Shown piece after piece: positions 798 to 8,235 of a stretch of 9,545 bases of DNA; positions within the stretch are counted from its first letter, which is position 1, and every line of letters starts with the position of its first letter. A program made the position numbers and the translations under genes. The notes beneath the pieces are model-generated. The model did no database searches. It was not told the DNA's origin and saw only the letters and a list, made by a program, of their open reading frames with translations. The DNA is from Candidatus Mcinerneyibacteriota bacterium. GTDB lineage: Bacteria; AUK180; JAQVHJ01. The stretch is from the NCBI GenBank assembly GCA_030630935.1, contig DAOVMD010000084.1:1-9545 (forward strand). Reading direction: 5' to 3'.

Positions 798-809
798 GGC
801 GGCGTGCAG

Positions 810-1403
810 ATGGATTTATTAAAAAAGATGATTCTTGAACAGGGTCAGGTGATTGAAGATGGAGAGATACTTAAAGTGGATTCTTTTATTGATCACCAGA
901 TTGATACGGGGCTAATGAAAAAAATAGCAGAAGAATTTATTGTACATTTTAAAGAGCTGGGCATTATTAATAAGATTACAAAGATAATTACGATTGAAGC
1001 TTCAGGTATTGCAGTTGCGGTTGTAGTAGGGATGTTCATCGAAAGACCGATTATTTTCGCAAGGAAAAAAATTCCAATCACATTAATTGAAAAATTATAT
1101 TCCAGAACGATAATCTCACCTACAAAGAACGATAAAGTTGAACTTGTGATTTCAAGTAAATACCTGGGTAAAGAAGATAAGGTTTTTATTATTGACGATT
1201 TTTTAGCTACCGGCACAACTTCAATCGCTTTGATTGAAATGATCAAAGAATCAGGAGCCGAAGTACTTGGAACAGGAGCAATTATAGAAAACTTTTTCCA
1301 GGGCGGTCGGGAGAAGATTCATAAAAAATTCCCAGATTTGGAAATCTTTTCTTTAGTATCAATTGAATCAATGAATTCAAGTGGTGAAATAATTTTTAAG
1401 TAA
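810..1403 (+). CDS. xpt: Xanthine phosphoribosyltransferase
   Basis: A 197-residue type I phosphoribosyltransferase that converts xanthine plus PRPP to XMP in the cytoplasm, a purine salvage step. The N-terminal 'ILKVDSFIDHQID' (about residues 20-32) is characteristic of the Xpt subgroup. 'TIEASGIAVA' (61-70) forms the pyrophosphate loop region, 'IFARKK' (82-87) follows, and the PRPP-binding motif 'VFIIDDFLATGTTS' (125-138) contains the two acidic residues and the T-G-T-T loop. Length matches the family. I chose the ATG at 810 because 'MDLLKK' aligns with the usual N-terminus; a GTG at 804 is the alternative, adding two residues. AGGGCGG at 795-801 may serve as ribosome binding site. It sits 12 bases after the DUF456 gene and 10 before the next, so no purine riboswitch can precede it; expression must follow the upstream operon. 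Its presence among envelope genes is odd. Confidence is high for the enzyme, moderate for the exact start. Confidence 0.93.
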   Translation: MDLLKKMILEQGQVIEDGEILKVDSFIDHQIDTGLMKKIAEEFIVHFKELGIINKITKIITIEASGIAVAVVVGMFIERPIIFARKKIPITLIEKLYSRTIISPTKNDKVELVISSKYLGKEDKVFIIDDFLATGTTSIALIEMIKESGAEVLGTGAIIENFFQGGREKIHKKFPDLEIFSLVSIESMNSSGEIIFK

Positions 1404-1413
1404 TATTGGTATT

Positions 1414-3102
1414 ATGAAATATTTTATACAAATATCCCGGAAGTTTTTATTAATAATTTTATTGCTATCAATATTGGCAATTTCTTCCAGGTCTGGAATT
1501 CTACAAGACCTGATCGATAAGGTGAGATTTATAATGAAACTGGAAAAAGTGGATCAGCCCTCAATAACTTCTAAGGATTCCGATGAAAGGTTAAAGAGTA
1601 AAAACATCTCTTTTATATTTGAATTACCTTCAGTGAATTATTTAATTTCAGAAACAGGTAGGATTGTTCCAAGTTCTTTTAGGGAAGGGATATTAAAGAG
1701 GAACATTTATTTTATTAATTTTATTGATGAACTTGAGATTCTAAATTTCATGGTATATCTTCCTCCTGTTCATATTGAGATGTTAGATGATTTCCTGAAC
1801 GGCAATGTTGATAAAGTTTTTGCGATTTCAACAAAAAAATTCAATGATTTAAATGAAGACGAGAAAAAACTTGTTTTAGAATTACCTCAAGGCTCTGATA
1901 GTAATTCTGATGTTCTTTCTCCTGCTCAGTTGAATGAAGAATGGTTTTTAAATATAATCTGCAGGTATAACCTTTCCTTATTAAAAGATTTCGAGATTGA
2001 AGATGATGAAGATTGGGAGAAGGTTAAAGTTAAAACATCAGGCTTTACGAATGAGGATAAGGAACTTTTATTAACTCTCGAAGTTCGAGCCCTCTCTGAA
2101 TATAGGAACAAATTAAAGAAGTTACTAAAGAGTTATTCTATTGAATTCCTATCAAATACACGCTCGGGTTCAGAACCAGGATTGTTTTTATCCGAAGCCG
2201 CAATCCTTACTGATACTTCAAGCCTTTCAATTTTGACAGATTTAAAAGACGGTCGAAATAAGTATTTTAAAAGTTCTGGTTATTTTTCGTTAAACCGTGA
2301 TATCACACAAAAAGAAATTCCCTTGATAACAACAGCAGGTTTTTCTTATATACTTACAGATGAAGAAGCGTTAATGGAGTCACTTCAAAGTATTGAATAT
2401 CCTGGGTTGTCACTTAAAGAAATTGAACAGTTTCCGTATTATATATTTTTTACAGTTGAGACCGGGAAAATTATTCAAATTTTATTTTATCATTCAGAGT
2501 TTAAGGATGTATTTAAACAGGAAAATTTAAAGGACTATAAACAAAACCTCAGAAAGATTTATGATTCAATCCCTGATAATACCGCTGAAGGTGTTTTCGA
2601 GAATAAAGATCCGCTCTATATAGTTTTAATACCAACTGATGTGCTTTTTGATTATACAAAAGAAGATTTTAAAGTTTTAAAGGAACTTTTTGAATATACA
2701 ATTGATCTTTATATGTTTTCTTATGTTCCAATTAAAAATCATTTAAAGAAACATAATGATAAGGAAAAAATGTTCTTATTAAGAGATTTATTAGCCAACG
2801 CACATAGAGATATATATAGGGATTGGAATAAGGCTCAAAAGATGTCTTTTGATATATTGACCAGCATGAAAAAGGATATTAAAATAATTTCAACTGATTT
2901 AGAGAAGATTGAAGATCCTGAAAAGCTAATGACTGCTACAGGAGAATTGGATAAAATAAAAAGGGATTTTTTAACTTTACGTTCGTATTATTCAAATCTC
3001 AATGAATTTACTGTTGAGGAATTCGATCTATTTAGTAGTCAAATGAAAAAAATCATAAAAGAATTTGACATTGAAGAATTTACAAAAGAACACCCGGAAT
3101 GA
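1414..3102 (+). CDS. Unrecognised membrane-anchored or secreted protein, coupled to TamB
   Basis: A 562-residue protein that I do not recognise. It begins with a basic stretch and one hydrophobic segment (about residues 11-23, 'FLLIILLLSILAI'), followed by 'SSRSG', which could be a signal peptide or a single N-terminal anchor; there is no lipobox cysteine. The remainder is hydrophilic and mixed alpha/beta in appearance with no further membrane helix, so most of it should lie in the periplasm. An acidic cluster lies at 193-203, and about 445-557 is Lys/Glu-rich and probably helical, possibly coiled coil. There is one cysteine (C183) and no catalytic motif I can name. The Shine-Dalgarno is weak. 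Its TGA overlaps the tamB ATG (ATGA at 3099-3102), so the two are probably made together. That arrangement suggests, but does not show, a role alongside TamB. It lacks POTRA-like and beta-barrel features, so it is not an obvious TamA. Confidence 0.85.
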   Translation: MKYFIQISRKFLLIILLLSILAISSRSGILQDLIDKVRFIMKLEKVDQPSITSKDSDERLKSKNISFIFELPSVNYLISETGRIVPSSFREGILKRNIYFINFIDELEILNFMVYLPPVHIEMLDDFLNGNVDKVFAISTKKFNDLNEDEKKLVLELPQGSDSNSDVLSPAQLNEEWFLNIICRYNLSLLKDFEIEDDEDWEKVKVKTSGFTNEDKELLLTLEVRALSEYRNKLKKLLKSYSIEFLSNTRSGSEPGLFLSEAAILTDTSSLSILTDLKDGRNKYFKSSGYFSLNRDITQKEIPLITTAGFSYILTDEEALMESLQSIEYPGLSLKEIEQFPYYIFFTVETGKIIQILFYHSEFKDVFKQENLKDYKQNLRKIYDSIPDNTAEGVFENKDPLYIVLIPTDVLFDYTKEDFKVLKELFEYTIDLYMFSYVPIKNHLKKHNDKEKMFLLRDLLANAHRDIYRDWNKAQKMSFDILTSMKKDIKIISTDLEKIEDPEKLMTATGELDKIKRDFLTLRSYYSNLNEFTVEEFDLFSSQMKKIIKEFDIEEFTKEHPE

Positions 3103-6100
3103 AAATCAAAAAAGCGACAAAAGTATTTATAATATTTTTCTTTTTACTTTTTTTTATTTCAATTATAATCTTTTTATCCCTCCCTGAAATATTAAAGTCA
3201 ATTTTAGTAGCACATGTTTCTTTTGGTAAAGACTATAAGGTCCAGATCGGTAATGTTACCGGAGATTTTATAAATTATATTAAAATAGAAAATGTTCTAA
3301 TAGAGAATAAGAGTTCAGGAGAACAGGTCTTAGCTTTTAAAAAATTAAGAGTTGAGTATAATTTAATTTATCTTCTCCGAAATGAAATTTATATAAAGAA
3401 ACTGAATCTTGATAATTTTTATCTTAATGTTTATAAAATCAATAAAGACGAGTTTAATATTTCCGAGCTACTTAGTTTTAAAAAGAGTTCGAAAAAGAAG
3501 AAAGCAAAAAAAACAAAGAAATCTAAGTTTATTTTTTCAGTTTATGATATTGACATAAAAAAATCCACATTTTTATTTAACGATAATAGGGTAGAACTGA
3601 ATTTTTCCGGGGTTGATTTTAAAGGTAATGCAAAGAATTCACTTTCTGAGAAGGATGTATTTAAAATAAAGATTAAGAATGTCGGGGTTGATTTATATAT
3701 AGATGTCCTTGGAACCAAAATTCAGGATATAATGGCACGAGATACCTCAGGTGAAGTAATAATAACCTCCAAGGCAATCAATTGGTATAATGTAAAAGGT
3801 AAGAGTCGTACAGGAGAGTTCAAGAGTGATGGTCATGTTTTATTCAGTGAACAGAAATTCCGCGTTGATGTTCACTCAGCTTCACTTGATCTAAGTGAAA
3901 TAGACAGGATTTTCATTCATGATAATAAAAAAAATCTTAAGGGTAAAATCAATGCCACCGCTAAGATATTCGGTAGTTTTGGGGAGTTTCATATTCTTGG
4001 TTTTGCCAAAAGCGATCAAATCTTTGCTTATGGTCAAACCTTAACAAACATCAGTTCAGAAATTATCTTTGAGAAAAACAACTTAACTTTAAATGTTGAA
4101 AGAGCTAATTGGAATGAAGCAGATGTTTTGGGTACGTTCAAGTTACATCTAAAAAGTGGGGGATTTATTATTAAAGGCCGTGGAGAGAATATTGATCCTA
4201 TTAAAATTCTCCCTGATATTGATTTTGAGAAGGATAAGATTAATGTATCTTCTAATTTTACCTTAGAATATACCCGGACATCTACCGGTACGGATAAGTT
4301 CACAGGAAATTTCTGGAATATTTCAGGGGACATATTACAATATAAAATTTGTAATAGTAAGTTCAGTTTTAATAAGGAAGATGAGCTGGTAACATTTAAT
4401 AAAATAGTACTTAATAATTCCTTTTTACAATGTGAAGGATTAGGAATATTAAGATTGTCAGAAATACCGGTAATTAATTTTGAGATTACTAAGGGGAATG
4501 TAATTATTGAGAATTATTATTCGCCTGCAATCGGGAAAGTTGGAGTAATTGGAAAGGTTTTTGGTCCTATAAATAACTTAGCAGGAGAGTTGACTTTAAC
4601 AGGGAATACTCTGAGCTATGCAGATTTCGAGTTTATTAATTTCTCAGTACAATCACAGTTCCACTTAACAGATAACTTTCCTGATAATTTAATATCAAAG
4701 GGTGAGATTAGTATCGAAAACATTAAAACACCTTATGAGTGGTTAGATAATCCTGAGAAAATTAATTTGAATTATAATTTAGACGACGGGCATTTAAAGT
4801 TTAAAAAGTTTAAATGCCAATATCTTGATTCTAACGTTATCGTAGTAGGAGATGTTTCTGAGGTTTTTTCAACTGAACCTATTGCTGCTTTAAATGTCAT
4901 TTTTGAAAAAATCCCTTATACCACTTCATTAGGAACCAATGTCCCTCCATTGAGCTTTAAGGCAGATGGAAATGTTGTTTTAAACGGCTGGCTTAATGAT
5001 TATAATATAATGGCAAATGTTTTAATTACAGAATTATTTCTCGGAAAATATGATTTTGATCCGATTGTTTGTAATGTTAATCTTACTAAAAATCTCCTTC
5101 AAACAAAAATGGAAAACCGCGAAGGATCATTTTTTATTGATGGAGTATTTTTTCTCAACGAACCCGATATTTCATTTAATTTGGAAGCCAGGTTGTCCAG
5201 AATCAAATCAGAAATCCTACTGGGTTTTTTCAAGAGCCCGGTCTTAGAAGACCTGTCAGGGAAATTTAAAATTGATTTATTAGCCGGAGGAACTTTAAGT
5301 AACCCCAGGTTTTCAGGAACATTTAGCTCTAATATTTACAATGTAATAAAAAGGGTTGAGCTGGGAATCTTGAAAGGAGAATTTTCCTACAGTGATGCAT
5401 CTTTACAGTTCAAGGATATTAAATTAGAACATAAATTATATTCAATTTTATATAACGGTAATCTGCCTATAAATATTTCTTTGAACCCCATGAAGTTTGC
5501 TCTTGATCAATCAGGAAAAATTAAAGGTTTACTTGACTTAAATAGTATTTCACTGGAGACGGTGACTTATTTCGTTGCATACCTTCCATTCTTTAATAAG
5601 AGAATTAAGAATCTTGATTTCCTAAAGAAAATTGAGGGAATCCTGAACGGGCATTTGGAGATTTCCGGGATGCTTGAAGCACCACAGTACTCGGGTCATA
5701 TTAAATTAAAGGATGGGAGAATCAAATCAGAGATTATAACTGAAACCTCTGAAAGAATTTTTATCTTACCATTTTCAAAAACTGTGACGTCATTAGGATT
5801 TGATATCAGGGATATAAATGCGAGTATTGTTCTTGAGCCATTGGGTGATGGCAGTAATAGAATAAATTTAGCATCGTTCTCAGGTAAGTTCAAGAGTAGC
5901 AATACCGAAGGAGCATTTATCTTGGCGGGGTCACTCGACCTTGATAATTTTAACCCGGATAAATTTAATTTGAATTTTAAACAAACTTCAGGAGTTATCT
6001 CATTAATTCTTCCTGATACCACCGTTACCTTTGAAGATGCAGATATTACATTCAGTAATTTACAGGGAGACTCAATGCCATCCATAACAGGTACGATTAA

Positions 6101-7109
6101 TGTTATTGAAGCGAAGACCGGTTATGACTTTATTAGAATCCAGGATATATTCAGTATTATTTATAATATTGGTATTGATATTAAAGACTTAATTGTGGAA
6201 GATGATGGAGTTAAACCTTCATTTGAGAAACTTTCATTTAATGTTAAACATGATATGAAGATTAACCTCCTTGTAAAAGTGAAAGATAATATAAAATTCA
6301 CAGGCACTCAACAGAATTTCTATTTAAATGCACGAGAGGTTAATGTTAAAGGTACCCTAAACGCTTTTACCCTATTGGGAGACATCGATATTCAGGGTGG
6401 GAAAATATATAAATGGGGGCATACCTTTAATCTTACAAAGGGTTTTATAAAGTTTAATTTGGAAGATAAATTTGACCCGGAACTGGACATGATTCTTCAA
6501 ACCAGAATTCAGGAATACCTGATCCTGATAAAAATAACAGGTAGGAAATCTGCACCGGAAATTGAATTCTCTTCAATTCCTGAACTTGATAAGGGAAGGA
6601 TTTTTACGCTTTTATTTATTCATCAAACTCCGGACTTTTTAAAGGATCCGAATAAATTTGAAAGTGAATTTTTAAAGGAATTAGTTTGGGAATCGTTAAT
6701 TACAGAAGGGTTTAATCTTGCAACTTCACGACTTGCTCCAGGGCTTAACCGGTTCTTTGATGTTAAACGCATAAAAATTGAAGCAGGTGGTGAGAATGAA
6801 GAATCGAAACAATTATACCGTGCAACTTTGGGTAAATATATTACTCCCAGAATGTACTTAAGTTATTCATCATATGTTTATCAGAACCCCCGCGACCCAA
6901 GCCTAACACTTGCAATACATGTTAATGCGTATATGTTATTTAAGTCTGAAATTAGCCTAAGCCCTCATCCGGAAAGAAAGATTGGAGACTCGATAGGTAT
7001 TGAAGTCCATAGAACAGTTGATTTTAATAAGTATTTATTTAAGTTATTTAAGTTAGAATTAAAGTCAATAGACGATGAAGAAAGTATTGATGAAAGAAAA
7101 GAATATTAA
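3099..7109 (+). CDS. tamB: Translocation/assembly module protein TamB (AsmA-like, DUF490)
   Basis: A 1336-residue protein, close to the usual 1200-1500 residues of TamB. Proteins of this family are anchored in the inner membrane and span the periplasm as a long hydrophobic beta-groove; they act in outer-membrane protein assembly and in phospholipid transport to the outer membrane. Residues 8-28 form the N-terminal membrane anchor. Then follows an AsmA-like N-terminal part, a Lys-rich linker at 128-143, and about 1000 residues of alternating short beta strands with many 'LxLxxxxG' type repeats. The C-terminal DUF490 domain occupies roughly residues 980-1330, with 'IQGGKIYKWGHTFNLTKGFI' near 1098, followed by a D-P-E-L-D turn, and 'EIEFSSIPELDKGRIFTLLF' near 1155, both typical of TamB. 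It starts inside the preceding stop codon (ATGA) and ends overlapping the flippase-like gene. No tamA or bamA is adjacent. The tail is charged, ending in 'DERKEY'. The identification is strong. Confidence 0.92.
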   Translation: MKIKKATKVFIIFFFLLFFISIIIFLSLPEILKSILVAHVSFGKDYKVQIGNVTGDFINYIKIENVLIENKSSGEQVLAFKKLRVEYNLIYLLRNEIYIKKLNLDNFYLNVYKINKDEFNISELLSFKKSSKKKKAKKTKKSKFIFSVYDIDIKKSTFLFNDNRVELNFSGVDFKGNAKNSLSEKDVFKIKIKNVGVDLYIDVLGTKIQDIMARDTSGEVIITSKAINWYNVKGKSRTGEFKSDGHVLFSEQKFRVDVHSASLDLSEIDRIFIHDNKKNLKGKINATAKIFGSFGEFHILGFAKSDQIFAYGQTLTNISSEIIFEKNNLTLNVERANWNEADVLGTFKLHLKSGGFIIKGRGENIDPIKILPDIDFEKDKINVSSNFTLEYTRTSTGTDKFTGNFWNISGDILQYKICNSKFSFNKEDELVTFNKIVLNNSFLQCEGLGILRLSEIPVINFEITKGNVIIENYYSPAIGKVGVIGKVFGPINNLAGELTLTGNTLSYADFEFINFSVQSQFHLTDNFPDNLISKGEISIENIKTPYEWLDNPEKINLNYNLDDGHLKFKKFKCQYLDSNVIVVGDVSEVFSTEPIAALNVIFEKIPYTTSLGTNVPPLSFKADGNVVLNGWLNDYNIMANVLITELFLGKYDFDPIVCNVNLTKNLLQTKMENREGSFFIDGVFFLNEPDISFNLEARLSRIKSEILLGFFKSPVLEDLSGKFKIDLLAGGTLSNPRFSGTFSSNIYNVIKRVELGILKGEFSYSDASLQFKDIKLEHKLYSILYNGNLPINISLNPMKFALDQSGKIKGLLDLNSISLETVTYFVAYLPFFNKRIKNLDFLKKIEGILNGHLEISGMLEAPQYSGHIKLKDGRIKSEIITETSERIFILPFSKTVTSLGFDIRDINASIVLEPLGDGSNRINLASFSGKFKSSNTEGAFILAGSLDLDNFNPDKFNLNFKQTSGVISLILPDTTVTFEDADITFSNLQGDSMPSITGTINVIEAKTGYDFIRIQDIFSIIYNIGIDIKDLIVEDDGVKPSFEKLSFNVKHDMKINLLVKVKDNIKFTGTQQNFYLNAREVNVKGTLNAFTLLGDIDIQGGKIYKWGHTFNLTKGFIKFNLEDKFDPELDMILQTRIQEYLILIKITGRKSAPEIEFSSIPELDKGRIFTLLFIHQTPDFLKDPNKFESEFLKELVWESLITEGFNLATSRLAPGLNRFFDVKRIKIEAGGENEESKQLYRATLGKYITPRMYLSYSSYVYQNPRDPSLTLAIHVNAYMLFKSEISLSPHPERKIGDSIGIEVHRTVDFNKYLFKLFKLELKSIDDEESIDERKEY
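7035..7055 (+). repeat. Short tandem repeat inside the tamB 3' end
   Basis: The 9-base unit TTATTTAAG occurs twice in tandem (7035-7043, 7044-7052) followed by TTA. It is in frame and encodes L-F-K-L-F-K-L near residue 1313 of TamB. This is probably part of an amphipathic strand or helix in low-complexity AT-rich coding sequence rather than an independent element. Confidence 0.5.
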
Positions 7110-8235
7110 AAGTAAAAGAAACTATATTAGAATTGGGATAAAGTTATTTATTGTAATCACAATCACTGTTATTTCAGTTATTTTCTGGCATACAATTGAC
7201 GACACGTCATGGAAAGAATTAAAAAATATTAACCTGAATTATTTCTTGATGGCTGCGGTTGCTGCAGGATTAGCTTGGATACTTGATGGCCTCAGGATTT
7301 GGATTCTCTCGAAGGCATTGGGGTATAAAGTCTCGCTAGGGTATTGTATCGGAGTTAATCTTGCAAACCTCTTCGTATCAACTGTAACTCCTTTTCAATC
7401 AGGAGGAGCGCCGCTGCAGATTTATATGCTGAATAAAAAAGGAATACCTGTTGGAAAAGCTCTCACAATCGGATTAGTAAAGTGGTTAATTTTAATGGTG
7501 CTATTCTCAGTTATCAGTACAATTGTTTTCTTTTCAAAAGACCTATTCCTGGTTGATGAAAAAGTATTTCAATTTTTTAAAAATGTAATAATTTTTGTTC
7601 TAGCGATAGTTATAATTTTTATGTTATCCGGTTTCTTTCCTTTTTTTTATAAAAAACTTATTTCAAGACTGATTATTTGGATATGTAAAATTAAATTCCT
7701 GAGAAAATATAGAAACAAAATGTTAAGAACAATTAATGCTTTGATCGAAGAATTTCATGCATCATTTATATCATTTACAAATACAAATAAAACATATCTA
7801 TTTCTTAATATGATTGTCACAATATTATTTATGATCTGTTATGCTTCAGTTGCTGTTTTTTTAATGGCGGGATTAGGGAAGATTAATATCCTGGATTTCA
7901 ATATAGTCTGGCAGATTATGATTCTGCAGATCTTCTTGATCTTTGTAATTTATTTTTCCCCAACTCCAGGAGCAAGCGGAACCATGGAAGCAGGTTTCGC
8001 ACTTCTATTTATTGGTATTGCATCAAAGTCAATGATAGGTTTTGTCGTATTATTCTGGAGAATGTTTACCAATTTTATTCCAGTTATACTGGGAGGTTTC
8101 TTTATATTGAAATTCTTTAGTGGTAAACCAATGGTAAGGGAAATTAAGACAACAATTGAGTTCGAAAGAGAAAAAATTAAAGAAGAATTTGAAAAAGTTG
8201 CCGAGATACAGCATGGCGATTCGGAAGAGAAATAG
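7075..8235 (+). CDS. Flippase-like integral membrane protein (LPG_synthase_TM / UPF0104 family)
   Basis: A 386-residue polytopic inner-membrane protein with about eight hydrophobic segments (roughly residues 21-38, 55-76, 88-105, 131-153, 171-191, 244-266, 278-295 and 318-347) and a charged, Glu/Lys-rich cytoplasmic tail (350-386). Two motifs identify the family: 'NLFVSTVTPFQSGGAPLQIY' (98-117), matching the conserved P-x-x-x-G-G region, and 'YFSPTPGASGTMEAGFALLF' (293-312), matching the P-x-P-G-x-x-G-x-x-E region. Relatives include the membrane part of lysylphosphatidylglycerol synthase MprF, YbhN and AglD; several are linked to moving lipids or lipid-linked sugars across the membrane. No aminoacyl-transfer domain is attached here. 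The gene overlaps tamB by 35 bases with the ATG at 7075. An in-frame ATG at 7090, preceded by the purine-rich AAGAAAG, would shorten the protein by five residues and is equally plausible. Its position suggests it works with TamB in envelope lipid handling (inference). Confidence 0.9.
   Translation: MKKVLMKEKNIKSKRNYIRIGIKLFIVITITVISVIFWHTIDDTSWKELKNINLNYFLMAAVAAGLAWILDGLRIWILSKALGYKVSLGYCIGVNLANLFVSTVTPFQSGGAPLQIYMLNKKGIPVGKALTIGLVKWLILMVLFSVISTIVFFSKDLFLVDEKVFQFFKNVIIFVLAIVIIFMLSGFFPFFYKKLISRLIIWICKIKFLRKYRNKMLRTINALIEEFHASFISFTNTNKTYLFLNMIVTILFMICYASVAVFLMAGLGKINILDFNIVWQIMILQIFLIFVIYFSPTPGASGTMEAGFALLFIGIASKSMIGFVVLFWRMFTNFIPVILGGFFILKFFSGKPMVREIKTTIEFEREKIKEEFEKVAEIQHGDSEEK

Follow-up and report, generated by a model that had tools for sequence, protein, structure and literature searches.

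A putative GH57-derived pseudoenzyme, probably secreted, is encoded directly upstream of tamB within a single family of uncultured bacteria

TamB proteins are found across diderm bacteria, often without TamA, and little is known of their partners beyond Proteobacteria and Bacteroidota (PMC4494059, PMC12045153). The described TAM partners of TamB, namely TamA, TamL and BamA, are outer-membrane barrels of the Omp85 type (PMC4494059, PMC12045153). In many phyla TamB is present where TamA is missing (PMC4494059), which makes partners other than TamA plausible. We analysed a gene preceding tamB in a 9,545-nucleotide stretch of DNA (the window) from Candidatus Mcinerneyibacteriota bacterium. Like the three known partners, its 562-residue product is encoded beside tamB; unlike them, it gave no Omp85 match in Pfam and looks like a soluble, periplasmic protein.

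The protein's closest relatives by profile comparison belong to glycoside hydrolase family 57 (GH57; PF03065, Glyco_hydro_57), whose enzymes process starch. The family has five conserved sequence regions (CSRs); CSR3 supplies the nucleophile Glu from strand 4, and CSR4 the proton donor Asp from strand 7 (PMC6037648). The matched subgroup comprises proteins of ~730 residues with the motifs HMHQP, GMWPSEGSV, LDGENxWEYY and GSDWxWWYG (e.g., P0003 in genome G026 and L105 in genome G001). The 562-residue protein is collinear with them over its central part, with the positions of CSR1, CSR3 and CSR4 in the same order, but it is shorter, carries a predicted signal peptide, lacks both the signature motifs and the C-terminal beta region, and goes undetected by the Pfam model. 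GH57 'like' proteins with incomplete catalytic machinery have been reported and judged unlikely to be GH57 enzymes, so this kind of protein is already known (PMC6037648). The present protein resembles those groups in its GH57 homology without catalytic machinery. According to the same excerpt, however, the groups were admitted only when all five CSRs could be identified, whereas none is recognisable here, and the excerpt makes no mention of secretion or of a tamB operon (PMC6037648). What looks new is the apparently secreted form, along with the loss of every signature motif and the location within a tamB operon. Literature searches on GH57 pseudoenzymes as such found no paper in the collection covered.

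The gene and its place before tamB

The gene is an intact ORF with an ATG start, and the identity of the following ORF as tamB is supported by a match to DUF748 in addition to that given in Table 1. The stop codon TGA (3100-3102) overlaps the ATG of tamB (3099) to form ATGA (3099-3102), exactly as an earlier note on this DNA, made by reading the sequence, had stated. A homologue of 546 residues, 37% identical, is found at the corresponding position of a second genome (locus L064 in G001), where a 3-base gap replaces the overlap; thus adjacency to tamB is conserved without the exact ATGA overlap. The conserved close spacing supports co-transcription with tamB; strict translational coupling, as in the note, is a possibility.

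Table 1. Features of the 562-residue protein and its neighbours (window positions)
Feature	Position	Strand	Basis
Phosphoribosyltransferase (PRTase) gene	804..1403	+	PF00156, E 6.2e-8; directly upstream in both genomes
CDS, 562-residue GH57-like putative pseudoenzyme	1414..3102	+	ORF, homologue, hhalign
Predicted signal peptide, residues 1-24, sole hydrophobic segment	1414..1485	+	Hydropathy; cleavage site by eye
Region collinear with GH57 catalytic barrel, residues 57-453	1582..2772	+	hhalign, 98.1% and 97.9%; segments apart
Degenerate CSR1, residues 70-74, ELPSV for HMHQP	1621..1635	+	MAFFT alignments
Degenerate CSR3, residues 289-297, GYFSLNRDI for GLWPSEGSV	2278..2304	+	hhalign, MAFFT
Degenerate CSR4 region, residues 402-414, with Asp409	2617..2655	+	hhalign, MAFFT
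Lys/Glu-rich C-terminal region, residues 454-562; putative position of GH57 helical bundle	2773..3099	+	Position
tamB	3099..7109	+	PF04357, E 2.4e-28; 51% identity to TamB beside homologue
YbhN/LPG_synthase_TM-like membrane protein	7075..8235	+	PF03706, E 2.1e-34; downstream in both genomes, 61% identity

In the second genome the homologue is likewise preceded by the 3' end of a PRTase gene, and the gene order PRTase, GH57-like, tamB, ybhN-like is common to the two genera. Codon-position identities between the two homologues were 0.52, 0.67 and 0.38, compared with about 0.28, 0.32 and 0.29 for random codon pairs. This pattern, together with the presence of a homologue in the same place, indicates that the ORF is a real gene under coding constraint.

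Two of the 337 genomes surveyed, the only members of its family in the set, encode the degenerate form, in keeping with the lineage-specific character suggested beforehand. It was absent from five genomes of a sister family in the same class (91–96% complete), and the tamB neighbourhoods of 10 other genomes, with both tamB copies of each of the five sister-family genomes covered, contained no such gene. Both known homologues lie directly upstream of tamB and none lies elsewhere. Judged from these genomes, the link with tamB is conserved but does not extend beyond one family of uncultured diderms, apparently of the LPS type; the two genomes of this family are 72–80% complete, and the conservation of the linkage amounts to one independent comparison.

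The operon is mixed in its contents, combining the end of a SecF-like gene, DUF456, PRTase, tamB and ybhN. Positions 1-276 of the window, named by reading, encode the C-terminal end of the SecF-like protein, and since this end opens the window, a link between the tamB operon and secDF is possible.

Hydropathy analysis of the protein revealed a 19-residue maximum of 2.25 at residue 12, the next best value being 1.25. As small residues close the N-terminal segment (LAIS/S, and LISAS/S in the relative), a cleavable signal peptide was judged by eye to be likelier than a membrane anchor, and the protein is probably secreted. Lys and Glu together make up 25% of the last 122 residues and 19% of the whole protein. 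The features read previously, a single N-terminal hydrophobic segment and a Lys/Glu-rich C-terminus, are borne out, and an envelope-type protein is supported.

Homology to GH57 and the degenerate signature motifs

The lead to GH57 came from a weak genome hit (E 1.9e-5) to a protein which Pfam identifies as GH57 (PF03065, E 1.3e-58). In HHalign, a two-row profile of the homologues matched an alignment of 12 GH57 proteins of one subgroup at 98.1% (E 1.3e-13 for one profile) and a second alignment of six GH57 proteins at 97.9%, while each homologue taken singly matched the GH57 profile at 96.9% and 95.3%. The overlapping segments 40-240, 150-340 and 240-453 matched the corresponding GH57 stretches at 95.4, 97.4 and 88.2%. 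The controls were clean: the reversed query gave 0.1%, 200 column shuffles gave at most 2.3% with scores up to 27.8 versus 112 for the real profile, and among 67 proteins longer than 300 residues from tamB neighbourhoods, the homologue from the second genome alone matched, the rest reaching at most 2.8%. Two other GH57 subgroups did not match the two-row profile (2.0% and 0.4%, the second a weak negative as that profile holds two sequences), although the matched subgroup itself finds them at 98.5% and 97.1%. The C-terminal region enters the GH57 alignment only in forced global hhalign, which reaches the C-terminus; residues 440-562 alone gave no match to the GH57 profile.

This significant, collinear match, as judged by profile comparison, is one of homology to the GH57 superfamily below the detection level of Pfam for single sequences. 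Whether queried with the lone sequence or with the two-row profile, Pfam, NCBIfam, PHROGs and PDB sequences gave nothing significant; TADA2A-like, B1 beta-lactamase and LOV2-DARPin matches in the library searches were noise. A scan of viral contigs for GH57 relatives that would deepen the alignment found none. The earlier view that the protein matches no family is true only of single-sequence tools. The match to GH57, a known and unrelated family, is one of the two findings which the note had named as refuting its reading; the other, homologues consistently away from tamB, was not observed. The AlphaFold model built from two sequences reached a pLDDT of 36.9, too low for a (beta/alpha)7 barrel and helical bundle to be read from it. 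With so few homologues the model is unusable, and the fold is predicted from sequence profiles only.

At CSR1 and CSR3 the homologue has EMDRY and GYYPPNGNI in the MAFFT alignments, and the column of the nucleophile Glu is occupied by Asn in both proteins (Asn294). Both proteins have Asp409 in the vicinity of the proton donor Asp, but the alignments put it at different columns. LDGENxWE(YY) and GSDWxWW(YG) are unrecognisable in both homologues, and none of the five signature regions can be recognised. Among the other profile hits examined, HxHQP and GxWPxE are intact in all 18 and LDGEN in 17. Because the protein matches the GH57 profile but has lost the motifs which other profile hits keep, it likely represents a GH57-derived pseudoenzyme, a non-catalytic envelope protein.

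An ordinary GH57 protein of the matched subgroup is encoded in both genomes (L102, 4479-5732 of contig C420 in G000, the window's own genome; L105, 2511-4766 of contig C280 in G001). Its motifs HFHQP and GMWPSEGSV are intact, and the gene adjoins murI- and rph-like genes in both. The ordinary protein is 73% identical between the two genomes versus 37% for the degenerate paralogue, so the latter is an extra copy whose divergence has been much faster. In a tree with intact GH57 proteins, the degenerate pair sat on a very long stem and could be assigned to no parent group.

Possible role beside TamB and other readings

Three features, the predicted signal peptide, the loss of the catalytic motifs and the constant position before tamB, point to a periplasmic protein with a binding or scaffolding role that is produced together with TamB. 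We favour, with a probability of about 0.6, a secreted and catalytically dead GH57 member that supports TamB in such a role. An ancestor from one cytosolic GH57 subgroup would have gained a signal peptide; the signature motifs of the active site would then have been lost and the gene fixed in the tamB operon. The former active-site face may have been remodelled so as to bind either a glycan or glycolipid ligand or the surface of a protein, and non-catalytic binding or scaffolding in the periplasm could aid the TamB bridge, made from the same mRNA. The best conserved segments, 267-291 (64% versus the 36% mean) and 109-133, are known from two sequences, which makes claims about a conserved surface weak; the first of them extends to the old nucleophile strand, which would fit a new role for the former active-site face.

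A shared operon establishes linkage and is no proof of interaction with TamB. It is possible, if on the whole doubtful, that the dead GH57 relative is a periplasmic carbohydrate-binding protein unrelated to TamB, with the gene order reflecting a mixed envelope operon. Such an operon does combine unrelated functions, and the tamB genes of the sister family have other neighbours, so that TamB works there without this protein; yet the position before tamB has been kept in two genera despite just 37% identity. Unlikely in our view is an enzyme with a rebuilt active site, e.g., around Asn294 and Asp409, whose substrate would be an unusual envelope glycan. Both homologues share the Asn in the nucleophile column and the Asp near the proton donor, conservation is among the highest in the segment around the nucleophile strand, and some exceptions among the GH57 'like' proteins keep a complete catalytic machinery (PMC6037648). 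Against an enzyme speak the loss of all five signature regions beyond recognition and the uncertain register of Asp409. We know of no other GH57 activity that operates without the nucleophile Glu. We give very little weight to a new fold unrelated to GH57, with a false-positive profile match: Pfam and PDB offer no match and the AlphaFold model is of no help, but the match is strong and collinear, its controls are clean, and it was repeated with separate segments and separate GH57 sets.

The most specific form of the favoured reading, an exported GH57 protein that lost its catalytic function and became a dedicated non-Omp85 partner of TamB in one family of diderms, is proposed tentatively and is itself rather improbable. 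If true, it would represent a new, non-Omp85 kind of accessory for an inter-membrane lipid bridge. The conserved neighbour of tamB is in any event a concrete candidate partner, the case illustrates that GH57 drift is traceable despite no Pfam hit and no signature motif, and an apparently secreted form is added to the catalytically incomplete GH57 'like' proteins.

Envelope genes and the sister family

The earlier note's remark that no Omp85 gene is adjacent holds: none lies in the window, and the Omp85 matches of the genome lie on other contigs, one a fragment that precedes skp/lpxD/fabZ/lpxA-like genes, the other an Omp85-domain ORF on a separate contig. Judged from reading and from the order of the genes, the genome encodes an LptF/G-like permease and Skp-like and LpxD/FabZ/LpxA-like proteins, a set which, with Omp85, fits an LPS-bearing diderm. 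A 928-residue ORF (L107, 3058-5841) with a C-terminal Omp85-type match stands upstream of an LptF/G-like permease gene and is possibly an unusual Omp85 protein of the lineage.

One tamB match was found per genome in the window's family, at its 72–80% completeness. The sister-family genomes (G002-G006; L065-L074) have two tamB-like genes each; the neighbours of the first are an MBL-fold RNase-like gene and DUF2085, and the second adjoins a clpC-like gene. DUF2085 near tamB is common to both families; the other tamB neighbours in the sister family differ.
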